DNA of 38,755 nucleotides from a virus: IMG/VR virus record IMGVR_UViG_3300021597_000025, positions 1-38,755 of that record, one strand, 5' to 3'. Numbering within the stretch: the first letter of the stretch is position 1; each line of letters starts with the position of its first letter. Below, piece by piece: positions 9,201 to 37,923 of this stretch. Made by a program: the position numbers and the translations under genes. The notes beneath the pieces were generated by a model. The model saw nothing but the letters and a program-made list of their open reading frames with translations, made no database searches and was not told the DNA's origin.

Positions 9201-11410
9201 ATTTCAGCGGCCATAAAGCCCATTTCTAAGCGATGCAAAGCTTCACGGCCTTTAGATTGTTTGCTAAACATTTGTGAAGCTGCGCCCGCAATTGCGCCGT
9301 ATGATGCCAAATGCGCGGTCGTTCTATTTTGAGCAAGAGATTGTTCTGCGGCTTCTACTTTGGCGAGCATTTCAGGGTTGTCAGCATAGAGCTTTTTGTC
9401 TTCTGCAATTTTCTTTTGCTGCTCTGCGTACTTCGCCTGTTGTTTGCTGAGTTTTTCTATTTGTTGGCCAATAGTGCCAAATGTTTCAATAATCACATTG
9501 CCCGCACTTGACCAGGTATCACTTATTGTACTCGCACCATTGAGCATGTCGTCGTAGTACTTACTGTCGCTAAGCAATGTTTGCTGTTGCAACATCGCTT
9601 CTGTGAGCGCGGTAACAGCGGCTATTTCGTCGGTGGTCGCATCTGCCGACAATTTACTTAAATTGCTATAGAGTAGCTTTTGCTTACTACTTAAACTGGT
9701 CAGTTGTAGTTGTTGGCCAAGCGATGCAATTAGCTTTTGGTTAGCGGTTAATTCTTTTTTAGTGACAACCGTTTTCTTTTCGCTTACTTCTTTACCGTCT
9801 TTAATGCGCACATTCCATTTTATTTGTTCCATGCCCGCATCAAATATTGCGCCTTGCAGGTCAGAGTAGGCATTTTTTAAGTTTTCTAAGGCTTGTTGCT
9901 GTTGGAGTACTTCTTGTGCCTGACTTTCTGCAAGGAACATGGCCGAGTCGCTACCAGAACGAATACCGCGCTGCATGTTACTTTCTACCGCCTGCTGTAA
10001 TGCGGTAATTTCTGCTGTTTTTGCTTGGATCAATTTATCGTATTCAGCCGCCGTTGCTTTTTGCTCTGCCAAGGTCATTTCATCAATTTTCTTTGCCGCA
10101 CGTCCAAGCGCTTGTTCAAGCTGGCCAAGTGCGGTTACTTGCTGGTCAATTTCATCGGGAGAAAACGCTTCGTAGAGTAAATAACCTGCGGTAACAGCTA
10201 AGCCAATTGGGCTAAGCAATGACTTAGTGGCGACGGCAAGCGCTCTGGTTGCCACCGTTTGCGCAGAAATTTTTGCGGTAGTGTTTTGAATAACTTGGCC
10301 ATAAACATTGGTTGTTACTGTGCTTGTGCGCATCGCTGCTATTTTGGTCATTAACCCTTGGCTCGCAGTCATACCCGCTGCGCCCATTGCGTACAGATCA
10401 AGATTGAGCTTTTTGATCACTAAAGCTGCGGTAACACTGCCTGCCACTGCGGTTATTAATGCGACTAACTCTTGCAACTGCTCTACATTCATATCATCAA
10501 GCATCACTGCCATGTCAGCCAATGTCGCAGCGATCAAATCAGTGACTTGATATACATCATCTAACTGCGCCAGTGATTTGTTGATCGCATTACCCGCTTG
10601 TACTTTGGTGCTGGCAATCGATAATTCGATTTTTGCAAAGTTACGATGAATGTCTTCCGATTGACTCAATATGGCGTTGAATACATCTTTTGATAATAAT
10701 TGGCCATCGAGCATCATTAATCGTAATTGGCCAACACTTACCCCCAAGCCTTTCGCTATACGATTTGCAACTTCAGGTATGTTCTCTAAAAGTGAATTAA
10801 ACTCTTCTGCACGGGCAACATTACTGCTCAGCATTTGCGCTAATTGAGTTTGACCTGCTTTAATGTTTTCGGTTGCTGTCCCACCAATTACGCCCAACTC
10901 TTGAATGGCGTCAGTAAACTCAAGCATTTCTGCATTGGTCGCTTCAAGCTCAACACGCGCAGTTGCCATACGCTGAAACATTTCAACCGTGCTTTCCAAA
11001 TTACTGCGGTTCGCTTGAGTAATGTCGTATAAGTCGCGATTAACGTCGACAAAATCGCCTGTATCTTGGGTAGCGGTTTTGATGCGTTGTGTGAGTACAT
11101 TAAAATTGTCGGCACGGTTGATCGCATTCATGGCACCAGCAATTGACAAATAACCAGTCACCATCAACTGCGCATTGCGGATCATGCCTTCTAATTCAGT
11201 GCTGGTTTGACTGGATTTTCGACTGAGTTTTTCAGCTCCAGCGCTGGCACGATCAAACCCTTGGCGAGCAGCTTCTCCACCTTTTCGAGTATTGATTAAC
11301 GTCTGATTGGTTTTCTTTGTTGTTTGATTGATTTGTTCTAAATCTTTAACAACAATTTTGCCACCTTCAGTCGTTAATCGTATCGCTAGTTCTAAGTCTG
11401 TATCGCTCAT
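6242..11410 (-). CDS. Tail tape measure protein, 1722 aa
   Basis: Longest gene of the window. I placed the start at the ATG at 11410 (MSDTDLELAIRLTTEGG), which overlaps the upstream stop as ATGA; an upstream ATG at 11476 in the same frame would add 22 residues that overlap the chaperone gene. Residues about 70-300 resemble the conserved tape-measure N-domain (NVLTQRIKTATQDTGDF, LNSLLENIPEVANRIAKGLG-like text). Hydrophobic stretches follow (VALITAVAGSVTAALVI; SPIGLAVTAGYLLYEAF; AALMAGVLGAAGIGF), and the C-terminal half is long coiled coil rich in Ala, Gln and Glu. At the usual ~0.15 nm per residue the tail would be roughly 250 nm. The protein sets tail length and is ejected with the DNA. Confidence 0.93.
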   Translation of the reverse strand: MSDTDLELAIRLTTEGGKIVVKDLEQINQTTKKTNQTLINTRKGGEAARQGFDRASAGAEKLSRKSSQTSTELEGMIRNAQLMVTGYLSIAGAMNAINRADNFNVLTQRIKTATQDTGDFVDVNRDLYDITQANRSNLESTVEMFQRMATARVELEATNAEMLEFTDAIQELGVIGGTATENIKAGQTQLAQMLSSNVARAEEFNSLLENIPEVANRIAKGLGVSVGQLRLMMLDGQLLSKDVFNAILSQSEDIHRNFAKIELSIASTKVQAGNAINKSLAQLDDVYQVTDLIAATLADMAVMLDDMNVEQLQELVALITAVAGSVTAALVIKKLNLDLYAMGAAGMTASQGLMTKIAAMRTSTVTTNVYGQVIQNTTAKISAQTVATRALAVATKSLLSPIGLAVTAGYLLYEAFSPDEIDQQVTALGQLEQALGRAAKKIDEMTLAEQKATAAEYDKLIQAKTAEITALQQAVESNMQRGIRSGSDSAMFLAESQAQEVLQQQQALENLKNAYSDLQGAIFDAGMEQIKWNVRIKDGKEVSEKKTVVTKKELTANQKLIASLGQQLQLTSLSSKQKLLYSNLSKLSADATTDEIAAVTALTEAMLQQQTLLSDSKYYDDMLNGASTISDTWSSAGNVIIETFGTIGQQIEKLSKQQAKYAEQQKKIAEDKKLYADNPEMLAKVEAAEQSLAQNRTTAHLASYGAIAGAASQMFSKQSKGREALHRLEMGFMAAEMVLSIEKSILNATESITNAGTSGDPYTAPARVLAMAALMAGVLGAAGIGFSSGAGGGNTAADRQSSQGTGTVFGDSDAVSNSVLNSFERAEELELKKYAELQQMNASLNSLNRNITQLAVGLIGSFGTFDEDNYGGQLGTVKTGTGNVWLDDNGLLSSLDPTGIVSGIVGSFSKTKKSLIDSGISIVGQTLGEIIESGLVDAQAYFDIKTKKSSWWGLKSSSKTGTEYENLDTSFGISLALIFKDIANSTNEAIDILGLEIAKETQNFRASIFDLAYGEDKYKNTEFSHLDEYFDAFTNGLTDGATRSLENFKINIPKMSFKDMTGDEIEQALQAMVSQQADLMVQYMVPQIAKYQQVGEGLYETLVRVAQEQAIFNGAVEAMGHQLSRFGDISKEVQTDIAQSIIGLMGGLENFREYTNTYYNEFLTDEEQFTYLENQLSSLFSGLEQTLPTTRDEFKLLLTGIDLTTEAGQSLYASLMGMVGSLDQYYDQLEKNLEQTEKAAKAELELAEARADFTQSFAEQIARMDMTPVQEQLLNLQQEFDDYRAEAEALGADTALLEELYAKKRQAIVDDALANINNTYQRSVDQLVADSDRLKQSFATLGASLSNSILAIRRQGSNWNEVGYQSGQIANFTDLIGQGSIEDQITNISNLEQAYNDKYNAELNKLNAARDAAQAAYDNQVAQINDRYQLELDAYNSIRQVIESLKQAADDLLLSDFSPLTNQQRFDEAQSQFNSILARANAGDADAISQLSNAGGNYLKEAQSFYASSDQFTAIFDRVYDAYNTIGNQQVSAPGKPIAPPVPAAISKHNEAVETLQQSTIEKLLELKELTAELEAQSESEFDLAMVALNEQLANDTALLQAELVSQTSAIQATNNILAQQNAILDVIAAKTNSQPIIKITTPFIHPPKPTENTNDAMLAEMKAMNSANKKQLQLMEQRAIQAEEHSKQSQTELNALKKSIIDGNTTIERQFDELEKLQRHA

Positions 11411-16012: not shown

Positions 16013-16582
16013 TTATTTAGCTCCTTGTTCTAGTGCTTTTTGGTCTGCAAATTCTTTCTCAGTCATACCAAGCAGAGTCGCAGCTTCTTTGTCTTCGGCT
16101 GATAACGCGACAACATCGTTGTTTCGTGCGTCATCCAAATTTGTTTTATCGCTTTGCTGAGATTTGAGCGCGGCAATCGCTGGAGTGGCGTCTAAAAAGG
16201 CTTTGAGCTGGGTAACGTCTTTATTGCCTAATTCGCGTGCCCAATCTTCCATTGACGCGATAATTTTGCCAGCAGCCTTGCCTTGCTCGACAATCTTGTC
16301 GACTTCTGAACCATTCACTTGTGCTTGTAATGCAGCCAAGTTTTGTTGCAACTCTGTTACTGCGGCAACGGGTACATATTCACTTGGGTCGGGGTTTGAA
16401 TTGGCTTTTAATGCAACAATTTGTTGATTTAATGTTGGTACTTGATCAGCTTTTGCATTTAATGCTGACAAAGCAGTTAATGCCTCGGTTTCGAAAGCTT
16501 TCAAGGAAGCAACATCGCTTGGCAATTCGCCTTCGATTTTGATTCCCAGGGCTTTTAGTATTGCCAGTAAAATTTCATTCAC
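16013..16582 (-). CDS. Internal scaffold protein (Mu gpZ analogue), 189 aa
   Basis: Inside the protease gene an in-frame GTG at 16582 (residue 201) is preceded by AAGAGGA with 7 bases of spacing, an ideal Shine-Dalgarno sequence in the middle of a coding region. The product would start MNEILLAILKALGIKI and contain only the scaffold part. In Mu the scaffold Z is made from an internal start of gene I, in the same frame. Here both the position and the ribosome site agree. Without experiment, internal initiation remains inference. Confidence 0.72.
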   Translation of the reverse strand: MNEILLAILKALGIKIEGELPSDVASLKAFETEALTALSALNAKADQVPTLNQQIVALKANSNPDPSEYVPVAAVTELQQNLAALQAQVNGSEVDKIVEQGKAAGKIIASMEDWARELGNKDVTQLKAFLDATPAIAALKSQQSDKTNLDDARNNDVVALSAEDKEAATLLGMTEKEFADQKALEQGAK

Positions 16583-17182
16583 GGCGGCGTCCTCTTGTTG
16601 TGTGATGTTAGAATTTTTGAAGTGCAATGAAGCGGCGAGTTGCGCAAGCGGAGCCATACCGTCAACTCCTGGTCGATTTACCAAGCCAGCAGAATGCAAA
16701 AATGTTGGCCGACCTGTTAGCGTGTCGTAACCAAATACGGCAGATATATATTTATATTCACCACTTGATAAATGTGCTTGTGCCTTGGAAGTCCAGCGAG
16801 GTTTAATGAATAAGCCTTTGCCTTCAATAAAGTGCACGTCACCAATATTAAAATAGCCAGCAGCAATTGCAGGTTGGCCGTTTTGCTCGGTCTTTAGCGT
16901 TTGGTGTTCATAGTCAATGACCAAATCGCCAATTTGATGCGGGGTATTAGCTTTTAGCTGTTCAAACGCAGCTTTATCCATTAACCATTGGTTGCCAGCA
17001 ACGTCGTTAGGTCTACCATCAACGGCTTGAAAGTGTCCGGCGGGTAGCAGTTGCACTAACCCATGGTCGCTCACCTCAAACGCATTCCCACCCAAAATGG
17101 CCAAGTTAGCGCTTGTTTGCGTCGATGCAGATAAAACCGCAAGGGCGGTGTAATTCATTATTTGTTGGTTTAATGTTTTCAT
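16013..17182 (-). CDS. I: Head maturation protease with C-terminal scaffold, Mu gpI type, 389 aa
   Basis: Residues 1-190 correspond to the Mu I protein (ILGGNAFEVSDHGLVQLLPAG, GDLVIDYEHQTLK, KYISAVFGYDTLTGRPTFLHSAGLVNRPGVDG split over the region). Residues 200-389 are helical, Ala/Gln/Lys-rich, with coiled-coil character, as in a scaffold. The protease trims scaffold and head proteins during maturation. The GGAGG before the ATG at 17182 is only one base away, which is unusually close; an in-frame ATG at 17158 lacks a better site. The late-activator motif at 17214-17237 lies just upstream. Confidence 0.9.
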   Translation of the reverse strand: MKTLNQQIMNYTALAVLSASTQTSANLAILGGNAFEVSDHGLVQLLPAGHFQAVDGRPNDVAGNQWLMDKAAFEQLKANTPHQIGDLVIDYEHQTLKTEQNGQPAIAAGYFNIGDVHFIEGKGLFIKPRWTSKAQAHLSSGEYKYISAVFGYDTLTGRPTFLHSAGLVNRPGVDGMAPLAQLAASLHFKNSNITQQEDAAVNEILLAILKALGIKIEGELPSDVASLKAFETEALTALSALNAKADQVPTLNQQIVALKANSNPDPSEYVPVAAVTELQQNLAALQAQVNGSEVDKIVEQGKAAGKIIASMEDWARELGNKDVTQLKAFLDATPAIAALKSQQSDKTNLDDARNNDVVALSAEDKEAATLLGMTEKEFADQKALEQGAK

Positions 17183-17213: not shown

Positions 17214-17237
17214 AATATTAACCTGTGTTAGTAATTT
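17214..17237 (-). promoter_or_regulatory. Late-activator (Mor/C-like) binding motif, copy 1 (PI)
   Basis: On the minus strand it reads AAATTACTAA, CA, then CAGGTTAATATT, ending 31 bases before the protease ATG. It is the same as the copies at 25658 and 29168 in about 20 of 24 positions. The core TTA(A/G)-N6-TTAA viewed from the plus strand (TTAACCTGTGTTAG) recalls the TTAT-N6-ATAA dyad of the Mu C site. Binding is inferred. Confidence 0.7.
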
Positions 17238-24848: not shown

Positions 24849-25084
24849 TGGTAATTCCTTTGTGAAACAGTTTGTTGCTGAAGAGGACTAGCACCGCAGG
24901 CCTTAGCAATTGCGACGTCAATATCAATTTGCGTTACACTATGCCACCCTTTAAAAAATTGATTGCGTTGCTCTATGCGCCTATATACACAACGTGCAAT
25001 GACTTTTTTGCCAAGCAGAGCGCGATCAATTTCAGCGCGCAAACGAGCATTGCGACCTTCATTTAAGCGTGCTACAGACTTCAT
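24836..25084 (-). CDS. Unknown basic protein after endolysin, 82 aa
   Basis: The start is set at the ATG of 25084 (MKSVARLNEGRNARLRAEID) because AAGGA lies 7 bases upstream and it overlaps the endolysin stop as TAATG; a longer frame from 25132 would overlap the endolysin by 49 bases. The protein is basic, helical at the N-terminus, without a membrane segment or signal. No family recognised. It lies in the lysis block. Confidence 0.62.
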   Translation of the reverse strand: MKSVARLNEGRNARLRAEIDRALLGKKVIARCVYRRIEQRNQFFKGWHSVTQIDIDVAIAKACGASPLQQQTVSQRNYQCNL

Positions 25085-25626
25085 TACGTAATCCTTATGT
25101 GCTTGAAAATGCAAAAAGCTCGCTTTACCCAACCATTTAGAAAAACCGCTTGAGAGGGAGTTGACTGCACTATGTTGACATAGTGCTCAATGCGCTTTTG
25201 CGTAAATGTTACACAGAGCAGCCAGCAATCATTGTCTGATAGTTCACGAGCAGCACTTAACGTGCGCTCGCCAATTATTCCGTCAACGGTAACGTTTAAT
25301 AAGCTTTGAAGCGTTTTACGCGCAAATTTACCGCCTTGGTTGACTGCGGCGTCAAAAATAATTAGCGCAATATCAGGGGGCAGCAGGTGACAGTAGTTTT
25401 TTAACCAATAATCCTGATAGTAAATATTAGCGGCTTGTGCAGCAGATAGGTCAGCAATATCGAGCTCAGGGTACCAGCGGCTTGATATACCAAAATTGGT
25501 TTCACCTCCGCGATCACTGGCGTGGTTAACATAGCCTTGCTCTTCTTCAAGAACACAAGCTATCGCAATACGCGCATTGCGAGGTATTTGCTGATCTATG
25601 AGCTTGTAGTAGTCATGTCTGTTCAT
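25084..25626 (-). CDS. Endolysin, glycoside hydrolase family 108 type (N-acetylmuramidase), 180 aa
   Basis: The motif EQGYVNHASDRGGETNFGIS (residues 29-48) is the GH108 active-site signature; E29 aligns with the catalytic glutamate. YWLKNYCHLLPPDIALIIFD and VNQGGKFARKTLQ are typical, and the part around VDGIIGERTLSAARE is the peptidoglycan-binding-type end of the family. There is no signal peptide, so export would depend on a holin. First gene of the main late unit, about 32 bases after the late-activator motif at 25658. Confidence 0.93.
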   Translation of the reverse strand: MNRHDYYKLIDQQIPRNARIAIACVLEEEQGYVNHASDRGGETNFGISSRWYPELDIADLSAAQAANIYYQDYWLKNYCHLLPPDIALIIFDAAVNQGGKFARKTLQSLLNVTVDGIIGERTLSAARELSDNDCWLLCVTFTQKRIEHYVNIVQSTPSQAVFLNGWVKRAFCIFKHIRIT

Positions 25627-25657
25627 GCTGTCAGATTGACAGCAATTATTTCACTAA

Positions 25658-25681
25658 AATATTAACCTGAGTTAATAATTT
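25658..25681 (-). promoter_or_regulatory. Late-activator (Mor/C-like) binding motif, copy 2 (Plys)
   Basis: On the minus strand it reads AAATTATTAA, CT, then CAGGTTAATATT. It overlaps the last codons and the stop of the sensor gene and ends 31 bases before the endolysin ATG at 25626. The same spacing to the start codon as copy 1 (31 bases) strengthens the case for a promoter element. TTAACCTGAGTTAA (other strand) is symmetrical at both ends. Confidence 0.72.
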
Positions 25682-28526
25682 TCGACTTTATCGGTTCATA
25701 ACTTTTAACTAGAAGTGGCAATGTGACTTTTATACATGTTCCGACGTTGTTGTAGCTTTCTACATCGATCGTGGCTTGTAAGCGTGCAGCAATCAACCGA
25801 ACTTGATATAGCCCAAGATTTTTTTGGTTAAAGTCTTTTTTAGATAATGAAATATTTTCGATATTAAGTGAAAGACATAAGTGATTCTCAGTCGTTTTAA
25901 TGTTGATGAAAATATCGGTTGCCAAGAGCTGTTCAATGGCAAACGTAAGTAATTCATAACAACTCTTATACACGCAAAGCAATATATTGTCGTCATGGAG
26001 AAGGGGGTTAAACGCGATGGGAGTCTTGTTGTATTGCAAGTAAACAAAGGCGTGATTCGCTCGTTTATTTACAACCATTTGTTCAATCGCTCTAGCTAAA
26101 TCATCACCTATAAAGATATCTGGCATTGAGAGAATAGCTTCAATGTTGAGCTGTTGAATGACTTCCGCAATAGCAGCTTTAGCATCCACCGTTCGTTCGA
26201 TATCAAGCAGCGCCTCTATTTTAGTTAGATTACTAATTAATGGCTGATATTCTTTGGTTAGCTGATAACTATTGCTCTGATATAAATCATTAACCAACTT
26301 AGCGTTGCTTAGCTCTAAGGCATTAGTTATGGTTGAAAGGCGCTTTTTGTAGTCGCTAACAACTTTGGCATTGAGCTGCAAGTTCTCGTGGTTAATCTTG
26401 GTTATTCGCTCGGTGAAATACTGCTCTTGCGCATTAAAAGCTTTACGATTCTGTTGAACCCAATAAACCAGGTACAGCAACAAACCAATACCCGTCAGTG
26501 TTAATACTGCTTTAGCGAACAACCCACCATACCATGGTGTTTCAACAAAGAATGTAATTTCTCTATGCAGCGTTTTTTGACCATCCTTAGCGGTAATGCT
26601 AACAGTGTTTTTTCCAAAAATGGGGCGAAAACTCACCTTGTTAATGTTGGATATTGACCCCCAAGGCTGACCATTAACATTGATACCGTATTGATGAGCG
26701 ATTGGATTTTGGTAACTGTTTAGACTTACCGCCAATTCGACCGATGCATCACTACTAAGTACATGTGCTAAATCTGTATGTTTACCGTTTACACTAAAGC
26801 GACTAATCTTGATCGCGGTTTCATAATCTTCTCGCTTAGAATCAGTTGACCAAGATACTCTTTCTCCTAAGCTAGTTATCGCCTGATAGCGGCTGATGCG
26901 ACCAACACTATACCCTAAAGGCCATACTTGGCTCTCTTTAGTTGAAGCGTTATAGATGCCAACACCTAATGAAGTCGCTACATGTATCCTACTCCCCTGT
27001 AAACTTATGTCATGAATACGATCGCCGATTCCAAAGAATGGAATAGTGACAATGACTGCACCTGAATTCTTACTATCGATCTCAAAAAGGCCATCATTCA
27101 ACGTTGCGATATAGATCTTGCTTTGGTGCTCCAAGAGCCTGATAGCATGAGATTCTGCAAGATACGGGGTAAATTCGCCACTTTCAAATTGATAAACACC
27201 GTTATCAGTTGCTAGCCAGGCATTGTTCCAATCACCATTAATAGCAAGAAAATCAACCACACTGGTGATCGCTGGGTTTTCAATTTTATCGACCACACGT
27301 TCAACGTTAACGTCTATAATGTATACGCCATCATTAGCGACGCAAACAGCAATTATGTGGCCACCGAGTTCTTTGATACATTGCACCGGGTTATTACTAA
27401 TCAAATGCGTAAAATTGATTACTTCATCTTTTTCAGGATCTGCCTTGAACAACCCATAATAGCCACCTAACCAAAAGTCGTCCCATTCCAGTGATGCTGC
27501 GTAAATATGTCCTTTGGTTTGCCGGCTAATATTTTCCAATCTGCGTGCCTGCGTCCCTTCTAGCTGATATACACCACCTATATCAGCCAAATACTCCTTG
27601 CCACTATCATTCAGAAACCAAGCCATCCCTGACGTATCACCAAGCCCTTGAACTTTTTCAACATTCAAAGTTGAGTTCGTCAACTTTTCGACATGCGTGC
27701 TCGCTAACCATAAAGTATCATCTGCGCTTTGAAATACATGATATATTGGTGAATCGAATTTACGTTGAAAGTTATGCGGGGTCTCTTTAAGGCTACGTAA
27801 ATCATAGCGGGTCATACCCTTAGGAGTAACCGCCCAAATAATGTCGTCATGTTTATTCGCGCTTACTTTTCTCACCGTATTTACGTAATTAACCACTGGT
27901 AACAATTGTGAATGAGCTAACTTCAAAAGTTGCGTCTCGGTTGAAAAATAAATGACACCGTCTTTGGCAAACGCTGAATGAATCACGCCTTTTGTTGCCA
28001 TTTGTTTATAGGGCGCACTATCCTCCAAACAGGTTACATTGGAACCGGCAGTAACACACACTTGGCCGTCAGTTGCAATTACCGTACTACGCTCACTCTT
28101 TTCTAGATAGAGCATATTTTCATGTTGTAAGTGCGAGTTATTGATATTAATACGTATAAGCTGGGTTTCTAGCAAAATGTACAGCCAATTGGTATTAACA
28201 GAAACATCAACAATTCGGTTGTTTTTATGCGTATCAAAGATGCGTTGTTCATTTTGCTGTTCGTCGATGCGTACGACAGTGAGGTTAGAAGCCGCAAATA
28301 CGGCGTTGTTGGCTGAAATAATTTTATTGATGTAGCCCAAGTCACGAGCAAAATTTGTGAGGTGGTGACCGTCAAAACGAAGCACTTCAGATTGAGTACC
28401 TATCCAAATAAAGCCCTCGTTATCTTGTGTTATATACCTTGGCAAAGTAATGGAAAGCTCGTTTGCAAAAACGTTGCAAACGAGCATTGAAATTATCAGT
28501 AAAAATCCCTGTACTACTCTTAACAT
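25662..28526 (-). CDS. Membrane sensor with periplasmic beta-propeller, Y_Y_Y-type domain and degenerate histidine-kinase module, 954 aa
   Basis: Signal peptide at 1-21 (LLIISMLVCNVFA), then two-component-regulator propeller repeats starting with RYITQDNEGFIWIGTQSEVL; a Y_Y_Y-like domain at about 590-660, PWYGG near 664, a transmembrane helix at about 668-690, then a cytoplasmic coiled coil and a NarX-type kinase region. The kinase is degenerate by eye: where H-box proteins read RDLHDGLGQ this one reads NDLYQSNSY (Tyr749 for His), the N-box Asn is replaced (ELLTF, Phe862), and the DxGxG loop is absent, although the G2/C-terminal phrase NLGLYQVRLIAARL..VGTCIKVTLPL is kept. No response regulator is in the window. 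It is accessory (moron) DNA between repressor and endolysin. Confidence 0.88.
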   Translation of the reverse strand: MLRVVQGFLLIISMLVCNVFANELSITLPRYITQDNEGFIWIGTQSEVLRFDGHHLTNFARDLGYINKIISANNAVFAASNLTVVRIDEQQNEQRIFDTHKNNRIVDVSVNTNWLYILLETQLIRININNSHLQHENMLYLEKSERSTVIATDGQVCVTAGSNVTCLEDSAPYKQMATKGVIHSAFAKDGVIYFSTETQLLKLAHSQLLPVVNYVNTVRKVSANKHDDIIWAVTPKGMTRYDLRSLKETPHNFQRKFDSPIYHVFQSADDTLWLASTHVEKLTNSTLNVEKVQGLGDTSGMAWFLNDSGKEYLADIGGVYQLEGTQARRLENISRQTKGHIYAASLEWDDFWLGGYYGLFKADPEKDEVINFTHLISNNPVQCIKELGGHIIAVCVANDGVYIIDVNVERVVDKIENPAITSVVDFLAINGDWNNAWLATDNGVYQFESGEFTPYLAESHAIRLLEHQSKIYIATLNDGLFEIDSKNSGAVIVTIPFFGIGDRIHDISLQGSRIHVATSLGVGIYNASTKESQVWPLGYSVGRISRYQAITSLGERVSWSTDSKREDYETAIKISRFSVNGKHTDLAHVLSSDASVELAVSLNSYQNPIAHQYGINVNGQPWGSISNINKVSFRPIFGKNTVSITAKDGQKTLHREITFFVETPWYGGLFAKAVLTLTGIGLLLYLVYWVQQNRKAFNAQEQYFTERITKINHENLQLNAKVVSDYKKRLSTITNALELSNAKLVNDLYQSNSYQLTKEYQPLISNLTKIEALLDIERTVDAKAAIAEVIQQLNIEAILSMPDIFIGDDLARAIEQMVVNKRANHAFVYLQYNKTPIAFNPLLHDDNILLCVYKSCYELLTFAIEQLLATDIFINIKTTENHLCLSLNIENISLSKKDFNQKNLGLYQVRLIAARLQATIDVESYNNVGTCIKVTLPLLVKSYEPIKSKIINSG

Positions 28527-28538
28527 TCAAAATAGCTA

Positions 28539-29090
28539 TTACCTTACGTCAGGATGATTGTATCCCCCACAGGTAGCCATCAATACGGGCGCATCTTCAA
28601 CACCGAGCACTTTTGCTGACGATCTCAAAACACCTCTAAACGATGACCTACTAGCTCCTCCCTTTAACTTATGCTGATTACTTTCTGGTGGCTTAATCAT
28701 AAGGAAAGTAGGCAATCTCGGATCGTCCGGATTAACTTTGTTATTCCACATTTGATAAACACTATCACCCACTTTGGGATAAAGCGCTGCCATACCAGCT
28801 TGCATCACTTTTACCGCTTCGTCCCCAAATACTAAAGCCTGCACACCATTGTAAAAACTGTCGGGTGTGCACAAATCAATATTATCTACTGTTATGCGCT
28901 CTCCGTCGGGCAACTCTAGCTCGACACTTATGTGCACTACCTTAGCTCGGTTAACCTGCGCTTTATTTGCTACCTTGGCTACTGCTTGATCGGAAGTAAC
29001 CACAGAATCCGTTGCTGCACTCGTTGTCATTACTGAAAGTGCCATCACTGATGTTACGCACAACGTTAGTATTTTTTTGCTTAGTCGCAT
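28539..29090 (-). CDS. Secreted protein of unknown function, 183 aa
   Basis: A signal peptide is visible at 1-26 (MRLSKKILTLCVTSVMALSV..TSAA). The mature part has an amphipathic beta segment (KVVHISVELELPDGERITV), a helical part around MQAGMAALYPKVGDSVYQMW and a basic patch HKLKGGASRSSFRGVLRSS. Two cysteines in the mature part (LCTPDS and MATCGGYNHP) may form a disulphide. No family recognised. GGAG lies 7 bases before the ATG. The sensor gene begins 12 bases after its stop, so the two are probably cotranscribed from the motif at 29168. Confidence 0.75.
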   Translation of the reverse strand: MRLSKKILTLCVTSVMALSVMTTSAATDSVVTSDQAVAKVANKAQVNRAKVVHISVELELPDGERITVDNIDLCTPDSFYNGVQALVFGDEAVKVMQAGMAALYPKVGDSVYQMWNNKVNPDDPRLPTFLMIKPPESNQHKLKGGASRSSFRGVLRSSAKVLGVEDAPVLMATCGGYNHPDVR

Positions 29091-29167
29091 AATTTATCTC
29101 CATTTTTTTGACACTAGTTGAACTAAAAAAAACTAGGTGAAAAAAATGCAATATGCGAGCCAAACTT

Positions 29168-29191
29168 AATATTAACCTGGCTTAGTAATTT
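29168..29191 (-). promoter_or_regulatory. Late-activator (Mor/C-like) binding motif, copy 3 (accessory cassette)
   Basis: On the minus strand it reads AAATTACTAA, GC, then CAGGTTAATATT. It starts within the repressor stop codon and lies 78 bases before the start of the secreted-protein gene. It predicts that the cassette is transcribed with the phage late genes, by analogy with Mu Pmom, the fourth C-activated promoter that drives an accessory gene. Confidence 0.68.
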
Positions 29192-29672
29192 AAACGTTCG
29201 ATTGCGCTTCTGCTACAGCTCTCAAAACCAAATCAACATCAGCGCCAGCTTTATTGTACTTTATGTAAGTCTTAATCATTGTCGTTAATGATTTTTCATT
29301 CACTGACAATTGAGAGCGTTCCATCACTGGCAAAATTTTTAACATCGCAGCTTTAATCAACTCTTCAGCATTATCATTGTCTTCAACTTTTGATTCGCTA
29401 ACACTTGATGGTGTACTTTTAGAGCCCTTAAAAAACCAATTCAAGTCAACATCGTGTTTTATGCAAAAATCAATCAATGCGGCTTTTTGCATGGTCTTCC
29501 TCGCTTTCCAAGTAGCAAATGTACTTTGTGAAACACCAAGTGCTTCTCCGAGAATTTTGTCCTGATTGGTCGTCGAATGCAGCGACGGCACCGCCTCTTT
29601 CATGCGACCAATAGCAAAATCAAAGTTATTTAGCTCATTTGCGATATTCTCTATTGCAGTTTCGATATTCAT
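29190..29672 (-). CDS. Phage repressor, CI-type helix-turn-helix domain, 160 aa
   Basis: Residues 38-83 form the repressor HTH: DKILGEALGVSQSTFATWKARKTMQKAALIDFCIKHDVDLNWFF (matches the bacteriophage CI-repressor HTH style). The remaining half has no LexA-type Ser-Lys peptidase motif, so induction by RecA self-cleavage is not expected; ends with a helical region that could oligomerise. It is divergent from the Ner-like gene, with operator-like repeats between them. Little Shine-Dalgarno sequence is seen before the ATG, which suggests weak translation or a leaderless mRNA. It would maintain lysogeny. Confidence 0.85.
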   Translation of the reverse strand: MNIETAIENIANELNNFDFAIGRMKEAVPSLHSTTNQDKILGEALGVSQSTFATWKARKTMQKAALIDFCIKHDVDLNWFFKGSKSTPSSVSESKVEDNDNAEELIKAAMLKILPVMERSQLSVNEKSLTTMIKTYIKYNKAGADVDLVLRAVAEAQSNV

Positions 29673-29759: not shown

Positions 29760-30026
29760 ATGGAATTTGAAGCTATTAAACAAGAGTTAAAGGCGAATAG
29801 TTGCTCAATTGCAATCATCGCCCGCTCTCTCAATAAATCTCACACCGCAGTTACTGACGTTGCTAAAGGCGTCAGCACCAGCAAGACAATAGCGAAAGCG
29901 ATTTGTGTTGCGCTCAATAGACCTATTAAGGAAGTGTTTCCAGATAAGCCTAGCTACCACACCAGCGAGCGCTTCAACTCTAAGAGCGAGCAAAATAATT
30001 ACTGGCAAAGCAAGCTTGCTAGCTGA
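29760..30026 (+). CDS. ner: Ner-like early regulator, helix-turn-helix, 88 aa
   Basis: Residues 15-60 (CSIAIIARSLNKSHTAVTDVAKGV..TIAKAICVALNRPIKEVFPDK) have the HTH pattern of Mu Ner/Nlp proteins, with the typical IAxALxxxPxExxPxR-like end. In Mu, Ner represses both early and repressor transcription after infection. First gene of the early operon, opposite the repressor, matching the Mu layout. AAAGG is 8 bases before the ATG. Confidence 0.85.
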   Translation: MEFEAIKQELKANSCSIAIIARSLNKSHTAVTDVAKGVSTSKTIAKAICVALNRPIKEVFPDKPSYHTSERFNSKSEQNNYWQSKLAS

Positions 30027-37584: not shown

Positions 37585-37923
37585 ATGAGTCACACCGAAC
37601 GCACAGCCAACTTGTTAGTAGACATGATCGTTCATCTTGAAAACGAACTGACAAAATACGGCCTCCCCAAACAAAAGGCTGAAACTATGGCGCGTGATAT
37701 ATGTGACCAACTGCGGCTGACTTTTGGCGGTGAACAATTTTATTTCCCTAAAGGTAAAGAGCTAGATGTAATCCTAAAACACCACGAAATCTACAAACGC
37801 TTTACCGGTAGCAATCAAATAGCGCTGTCCAAAGAGTTTGGGATGACAGTGCCACATATATATAGAGTACTCAAAAGCATACATAAAGAAGAACTAGACA
37901 AACGGCAACCAGACTTGTTCTAA
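37585..37923 (+). CDS. mor: Mor/C-family transcription activator, 112 aa
   Basis: The N-terminal helical dimerisation domain (LLVDMIVHLENELTKYGLPKQKAETMARDICDQL, residues 10-43), the middle beta-strand GGEQFYFPKG, and the HTH at 72-100 (RFTGSNQIALSKEFGMTVPHIYRVLKSI) are the complete Mor/C pattern. Mu Mor activates the middle promoter and C the late ones. Only one member is in this window, so it is the likely activator of the three motifs on the late strand. GAGG is 8 bases before the ATG. Confidence 0.92.
   Translation: MSHTERTANLLVDMIVHLENELTKYGLPKQKAETMARDICDQLRLTFGGEQFYFPKGKELDVILKHHEIYKRFTGSNQIALSKEFGMTVPHIYRVLKSIHKEELDKRQPDLF

Follow-up and report, generated by a model that had tools for sequence, protein, structure and literature searches.

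A repressor-linked exported protein and membrane sensor in Mu-like phages: a candidate envelope input to lysogeny

Introduction

How does a prophage in a non-model bacterium become induced when there is no DNA damage? A locus in one Mu-like phage may bear on this question. The phage is IMG/VR virus record IMGVR_UViG_3300021597_000025, analyzed over its full 38,755 bases and referred to here as the window. On its minus strand the repressor gene c (29190-29672) is followed by a gene for a 183-amino-acid protein predicted to be exported, designated SEC (28539-29090), a gene for a 954-amino-acid predicted membrane protein, designated the sensor (25662-28526), and an endolysin gene (25084-25626). 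SEC and sensor together are called the pair or the cassette. Why should a Mu-like phage carry two such genes between its repressor and its endolysin? An earlier note, made from the DNA letters alone, suggested that they are a moron gained with its own copy of the late promoter, or by recombination between two motif copies, and that they could act on the envelope during lysis or on superinfecting phage. The two genes lie where that note placed them, and the neighbors are as it named them: a CI-type helix-turn-helix (HTH) repressor, a glycosyl hydrolase 108 endolysin and a Mor/C activator at 37585-37923. Our analysis ties the pair primarily to the lysogeny repressor, the late promoter being a feature of the window's lineage.

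Linkage of the pair to the repressor

Relatives were sought with a SEC profile and a c-family scan over IMG/VR, and in 397 genomes from the GTDB family to which a Colwellia metagenome-assembled genome belongs. The SEC profile identified 19 IMG/VR loci, and in all 19 the genes c, SEC and sensor follow one another in this order on one strand, the contig of L212 ending within the sensor gene. Detailed annotation of 11 loci showed each of them to be Mu-like. No relatives of SEC or the sensor turned up in close-peptide scans of IMG/VR or in a tblastn search of the phage collection; only the SEC profile found them. The separate c-family scan yielded 13 phages, three of them missed by the SEC scan, and both SEC and sensor accompany c in 13 of 13; an alignment of c that spanned every lineage was too diverse to serve as a query. 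With sensitive searches the pair is present in about 25 other Mu-like phage records. Co-occurrence of the two proteins in the databases, a point raised by the earlier note, is thus established, and independence of the cassette from the repressor is contradicted.

The unit is found on at least three phage backbones: the window type, that of L212-L215 (MuA 47% to the window) and that of L197-L211, whose MuA matches only Mu or HS6, at 21-28%. Prophages L129 and L130 have c, SEC and sensor followed by the endolysin gene, and the order of the first three is shared by L140 and L141. (The L140 and L211 records probably represent one element present in two collections.) Outside the window's lineage, and where the start of SEC is clear, only 0-19 bp separate it from c. 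We conclude that the pair is tied to the lysogeny repressor because this gap is short in most phages and because c, SEC and sensor travel together.

The layout, with genes past the repressor on the same strand and short gaps between them, is Rex-like as far as gene order goes. In the lambda cI-rexA-rexB series two extra genes lie right behind the repressor, one product is a membrane protein and expression is expected in the lysogen. The likeness extends to the two added genes and the one membrane product. There is no homology to rex seen here, and the genes encode an exported protein and a periplasmic-sensing GHKL receptor with exchanged ectodomain alleles. No description of a repressor-SEC-sensor module was found in the literature, in agreement with the earlier note, which knew of no described system of this kind.

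Relatives without the cassette

Relatives of the window's transposase are carried by 19 genomes. In the cassette-less prophages read from these genomes, the interval between repressor and endolysin is filled by cargo of other kinds that varies, such as an NA37 protein, and the claim that Mu-like phages normally carry nothing in this interval is wrong. The earlier note had looked to an empty site with a single copy of its 24-bp motif. The single motif does occur before the endolysin region in L185, L186, L085 and L126, where the interval is not truly empty and contains other cargo.

One cassette-less relative, L186 (MuA 63%), has a repressor in which the same HTH family is fused to Peptidase_S24, whereas the cassette-type c has only a short helical C-terminal part. 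The c protein of the window, 160 amino acids long with a Phage_CI_repr HTH at residues 35-84, likewise lacks an S24 domain. The HTH-S24 fusion is the standard form of an SOS-responsive repressor. The contrast between L186 and the cassette-type repressors, a single example, is no more than suggestive.

As a separate observation, a gene pair encoding a 37-kD nucleoid-associated (NA37) protein and an adjoining 396-amino-acid protein without a Pfam match recurs as repressor-endolysin cargo in two different prophages (L185, 2973-5215; L191, 8164-10373).

Allele exchange among close relatives

Five closely related phages (L198, L199, L200, L204 and L205) were compared along the unit. The C-terminal part of c together with SEC is 93-100% identical at the nucleotide level in the five, and the cytoplasmic part of the sensor is 91-98% identical in amino acids. 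Two sharply bounded segments differ among them. One covers the operator and the HTH of c, and the other the sensor ectodomain, which falls into two classes with 43-68% amino acid identity between them and with an edge at the membrane helix. These two segments assort independently: L198 and L200 have an HTH allele in common but not an ectodomain, and the same is true of L199 and L204. The segments thus flank a conserved core consisting of the C-terminus of c, the predicted exported SEC and the sensor cytoplasmic domain. A second comparison, of L212 with L213, also revealed a different operator/HTH segment next to a c C-terminus and SEC that are 99-100% identical. Positive selection on the ectodomain was considered and was not seen; selection within the classes is purifying, with omega of 0.05-0.13. 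The equivalent of the exchanged ectodomain in the window is residues about 25-665 (26532-28454, minus strand).

Predicted anatomy of the sensor and SEC

The earlier note took both proteins to be exported or membrane-bound, and this is supported by signal segments in both and a membrane helix in the sensor. In the window the sensor is predicted to consist of a signal segment (residues 2-20), a periplasmic ectodomain of the Reg_prop/Y_Y_Y type, one membrane helix (residues 669-687; 26466-26522), a coiled coil and a GHKL/HATPase_c-like C-terminal region (residues 857-938; 25713-25958). Pfam and PHROG searches with this protein gave only weak matches to Reg_prop (1.7e-4) and HATPase_c (0.011). A sensor profile matched the ectodomains of Bacteroides hybrid sensors, from 3.7e-24 for 4a2l to 2.5e-19 over the set 4a2l, 3ott and 3v9f, and it also matched ATPase domains of the HPK7 type such as those of VraS and DesK. 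A chromosomal copy of the sensor has Reg_prop and a near-threshold Y_Y_Y. Since the structure model of the sensor (pLDDT 53) was too weak for a structure search, its anatomy is taken from sequence profiles.

Ectodomains built of propellers and Y_Y_Y bind oligosaccharides in the Bacteroides hybrid sensors. The phage sensor resembles these two-component proteins in its Reg_prop propellers and Y_Y_Y ectodomain; it differs in that no receiver or DNA-binding output domain was found in any sensor copy scanned, nor a conserved phosphoacceptor histidine. Its likeness to the NarX/UhpB/DesK-type (HPK7) kinases is an ATP-binding domain, which in most phage copies retains intact N, G1 and G2 boxes.

SEC had no match in Pfam or PHROG, no relative among Protein Data Bank sequences and no match among the PADLOC defence models. 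Its AlphaFold model, moderate in confidence (pLDDT 59; core 76-88), gave no Foldseek match better than E 0.7. The family is recognized by the signature W-x2-K-x4-DP[RW]-x-PT ... CG-x3-H, and R48, W115, K118, D123, P124, P127, T128, C174, G175 and H179 are invariant in phage and chromosomal forms. Phage SEC has a signal segment, which in the window protein is hydrophobic and N-terminal, and two conserved cysteines; the signal segment and the second cysteine are absent from the chromosomal SEC that adjoins miaB and a ubiF-like gene. An exported phage product encoded together with a phage receptor recalls arbitrium and other phage signalling, by analogy only, although SEC is a protein of 160-190 amino acids and not a peptide. 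SEC as a specific ligand of the ectodomain is disfavored, since SEC is 95-99% identical across the ectodomain classes; a dedicated ligand-receptor pair is therefore unlikely.

A proposed lysogeny-stage sensor feeding the repressor

We tentatively favor a reading in which the pair is a lysogeny-stage, trans-envelope sensor that feeds the repressor, and give it somewhat less than an even chance. SEC and sensor would be genes two and three of a lysogeny operon, c>SEC>sensor, in transposable (Mu-like) phages, so that a lysogen would make both along with the repressor. SEC would be exported, and the sensor would cross the inner membrane with its propeller/Y_Y_Y ectodomain outside and its GHKL-type domain in the cytoplasm. 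The ectodomain may read an envelope or extracellular signal, which the cytoplasmic domain would relay, most likely to the repressor through the C-terminal part of c. Lysogeny would then be held or released by an envelope cue in place of SOS cleavage. An additional Mor/C-type promoter might, in the window's lineage, let the pair be made late as well. Three features favor coupling to c: the pair is associated exclusively with one repressor family, a conserved core lies between the two exchanged segments, and the S24 input is missing.

With more reserve, we propose that a receptor in the repressor's operon sets prophage induction from an extracellular cue, perhaps a glycan, with a swappable ectodomain (sensing) and a swappable DNA-binding domain (immunity) on either side of the conserved core. 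The recurrence of the three-gene unit across divergent Mu-like phages suggests that these phages, when dormant, monitor the cell envelope or their surroundings. If so, the unit, in which immunity and sensing segments are exchanged independently of each other, would link the exterior to a phage repressor across the membrane. Natural matched allele pairs are available in L198/L199 versus L200/L204/L205.

Modules for SOS-independent induction are known in other phages, namely VqmA-Qtip of VP882 and TF-smORF (PMC10432266). They consist of a transcription factor and a small protein that inactivates the repressor, and the words 'membrane' and 'periplasm' are absent from the text of that report (PMC10432266). 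The unit described here is similar in having a phage-encoded sensing input beside lysogeny control that could bypass DNA damage; it differs in its candidate input, a receptor that spans the membrane and is paired with an exported protein, both encoded in the repressor's own gene series.

Several results weigh against a signal passing from the sensor to c. SEC is conserved while the ectodomain is swapped, which leaves SEC without a role as the ectodomain's specific ligand. No conserved phosphoacceptor histidine was detected between the membrane helix and the N box (the best histidine columns hold 6 of 15 and 3 of 10 sequences), and the ATP-binding boxes are degenerate in the sensors of L129 and the window, N and G1 in the latter; both features set the sensor apart from HPK7 kinases. 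Between the c of the window type and that of the main family, homology is detectable in the HTH and not in the C-terminal part. Promoter and terminator scans leave co-transcription of c, SEC and sensor unsettled, and the S24 contrast comes from one cassette-less relative. Finally, the pair also occurs without c, in an old chromosomal location linked to miaB, in L131 and in L132/L133, so it must have a use apart from its repressor.

Pairs without a repressor and the alternatives they support

Solitary SEC and sensor genes are intact beside a decayed c in L132 (6878-10365) and L133 (6954-10504). These are apparently phage remnants, and omega between their sensors is 0.10. In L131 a lone pair lies behind secF without c. 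In several genomes (L134-L139; for example L139, 7053-10278) a chromosomal pair, also without c, adjoins miaB and a ubiF-like monooxygenase gene. Trees of SEC and of the sensor agree on three separate clades, with some long branches: one holds the window lineage and chromosomal L131, one the miaB-linked pairs and one the main phage group.

These copies fit lysogenic conversion or superinfection exclusion, in which the pair would be carried along in the operon of the repressor but its targets would be the cell surface or infecting phages, not c; the swapped ectodomain would determine the phage or surface feature that is recognized. The position right behind a repressor is often taken by genes for conversion or exclusion, lambda rex being an example. 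Retention of the pair without c in the two solitary loci under strong constraint (omega about 0.1), as well as in chromosomes of relatives, fits such a role; so do ectodomain alleles suited to recognition specificity, and products that are both predicted to be exported or membrane-anchored. On the other hand, a known anti-phage defence system was sought with PADLOC and no convincing match was obtained, the sensor of the window matching only ZorA, weakly and in the coiled-coil region. An architecture with a cytoplasmic GHKL output is not required for exclusion. The main c family was found with the pair in all 13 phages of the c scan, which would be needless for plain cargo, yet linkage alone could explain the co-occurrence. 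We regard conversion or exclusion as unlikely taken by itself; because the pair survives without c, it is nearly as probable as coupling to c. If correct, it would define a new family of repressor-linked genes with allele-specific recognition. In either case the SEC family and its partner sensor gain a genomic context.

The chromosomal copies also raise the idea of a host signalling pair that phages picked up for the benefit of the host, for instance in polysaccharide sensing, with the repressor merely a safe place for expression in the lysogen. A SEC relative is present in 66 of the 397 genomes of the GTDB family and scarce in the class outside it (2 of 369 genomes). The sensor homolog is immediately downstream of SEC in the three best of these genome matches, a Reg_prop-type sensor adjoins SEC at all six chromosomal loci sampled, and the ectodomain resembles glycan-sensing hybrid sensors. 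However, the lack of a signal segment and of one cysteine in chromosomal SEC implies that the phage form has shifted in its place of action, the phage clades stand apart from the chromosomal clade in both trees, and a fixed location after one repressor family points to more than a safe harbor. We judge a borrowed host pair to be improbable.

The 24-bp motif and possible late expression

The earlier proposal of late expression was built on two 24-bp motifs flanking the cassette. They are real: motif 1 (AAATTACTAAGCCAGGTTAATATT; 29168-29191, minus strand) and motif 2 (25658-25681, minus strand) are identical at 21 of 24 positions, and none is expected in shuffled sequence. Motif 2 includes the sensor stop codon, as had been noted, and would serve the endolysin (glycosyl hydrolase 108 and PG_binding_3), the first gene past it; motif 1 likewise overlaps the stop codon of the repressor. 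A third copy, absent from the earlier list, lies at 17214-17237 (minus strand), 32 bp before the gene for a Mu I-like protease (16013-17182, minus strand), which we take to be the place of Mu's P_I.

The pattern is present in four other viral contigs and stands ahead of protease I in L082 and L085; motifs upstream of protease I in other viral contigs are identical or near-identical. A position matrix built from the protease and endolysin sites gave high scores to sites that precede or lie close to the endolysin in L184, L185, L186, L085 and L126, and in L129 and L130 it picked out a site at the endolysin plus a weaker one before SEC. In the L130 prophage the endolysin and protease sites are both altered to TTTAGTAACCTAGGTTAATATT, as expected if one activator reads both. 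The phage of the window itself encodes a Mor/C-family protein (37585-37923, plus strand; Pfam Mor 1.2e-27), the presumed binder. Since the motif precedes protease I or the endolysin in relatives, changes in step and is accompanied by a Mor/C homolog, it is very probably a Mor/C-type late-activator site. With Mor/C present and one activator site repeated ahead of different late units, the arrangement resembles the C-dependent promoters of Mu (P_lys, P_I, P_P and P_mom). The differences are another sequence and, confined to the window's lineage, an additional copy ahead of SEC: the site stands before protease I, endolysin and SEC in the window, and before protease I and/or endolysin in relatives.

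The motif ahead of SEC reaches 32.7 bits in the window, against 12.2 in L129 and 6.2 in L130. The weak L129 and L130 scores would be expected 0.0002 and 0.002 times in those gaps (76-119 bp; about 120 bp). Following the SEC-side motif, a block (TTTGGCKYRCATATTGCATTTT) that contains CATATT, a putative -10 element (29150-29155, minus strand), is common to the leaders of the window and L129. The weak copies and the common block suggest that a late-type promoter of SEC is an old trait of the window's lineage, predating the split of the window, L129 and L130.

This conserved site is the reason to retain late action on the envelope as an alternative. What stands of the moron proposal is the pair's own motif copy, directly ahead of SEC in the window and weaker in two relatives. 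A free-standing late moron is not supported, because the short repressor-SEC gap of most pair-carrying phages leaves no room for a late promoter and because the three genes travel together. A scan ahead of SEC in L140 and L141 found no motif, many phages have opposite-strand genes rather than a late operon after the sensor, and the solitary and chromosomal pairs have no adjoining lysis genes; we consider late action improbable. Acquisition by recombination between the two motifs, also proposed earlier, is rejected, since identity stops at the motif edge and the block beyond the SEC-side motif matches the SEC leader of L129 and not the endolysin copy.

Other features of the locus

Late genes have an inverted repeat that runs up to their start codon. 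In the window it lies at 25623-25645, as GCTGTCAatcTGACAGC-ATG before the endolysin, and like repeats (GCTGTCAttcTGGCAGC, GTTGTCAttcTGGCAAC and GCCGCCAcacTGGTGGC) are present in the endolysin leaders of L130 (13029) and L129 (13566) and in the protease I leaders of L082 and L085. Changes in the repeat fall on both arms, so that pairing is kept, and translational or transcriptional control of the late genes is possible.

Divergent from c, a gene for a Ner-like early repressor occupies 29760-30026 on the plus strand, and the operator presumably lies between the two genes. Past the sensor, L225 carries a second, diverged c-type repressor on the opposite strand (9770-10246, minus strand) without a SEC or sensor of its own. 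In L221 a 324-amino-acid HNH-domain protein with a weak match to ZorE is encoded directly past the sensor (9765-10739), and there the stretch looks like a second accessory site.

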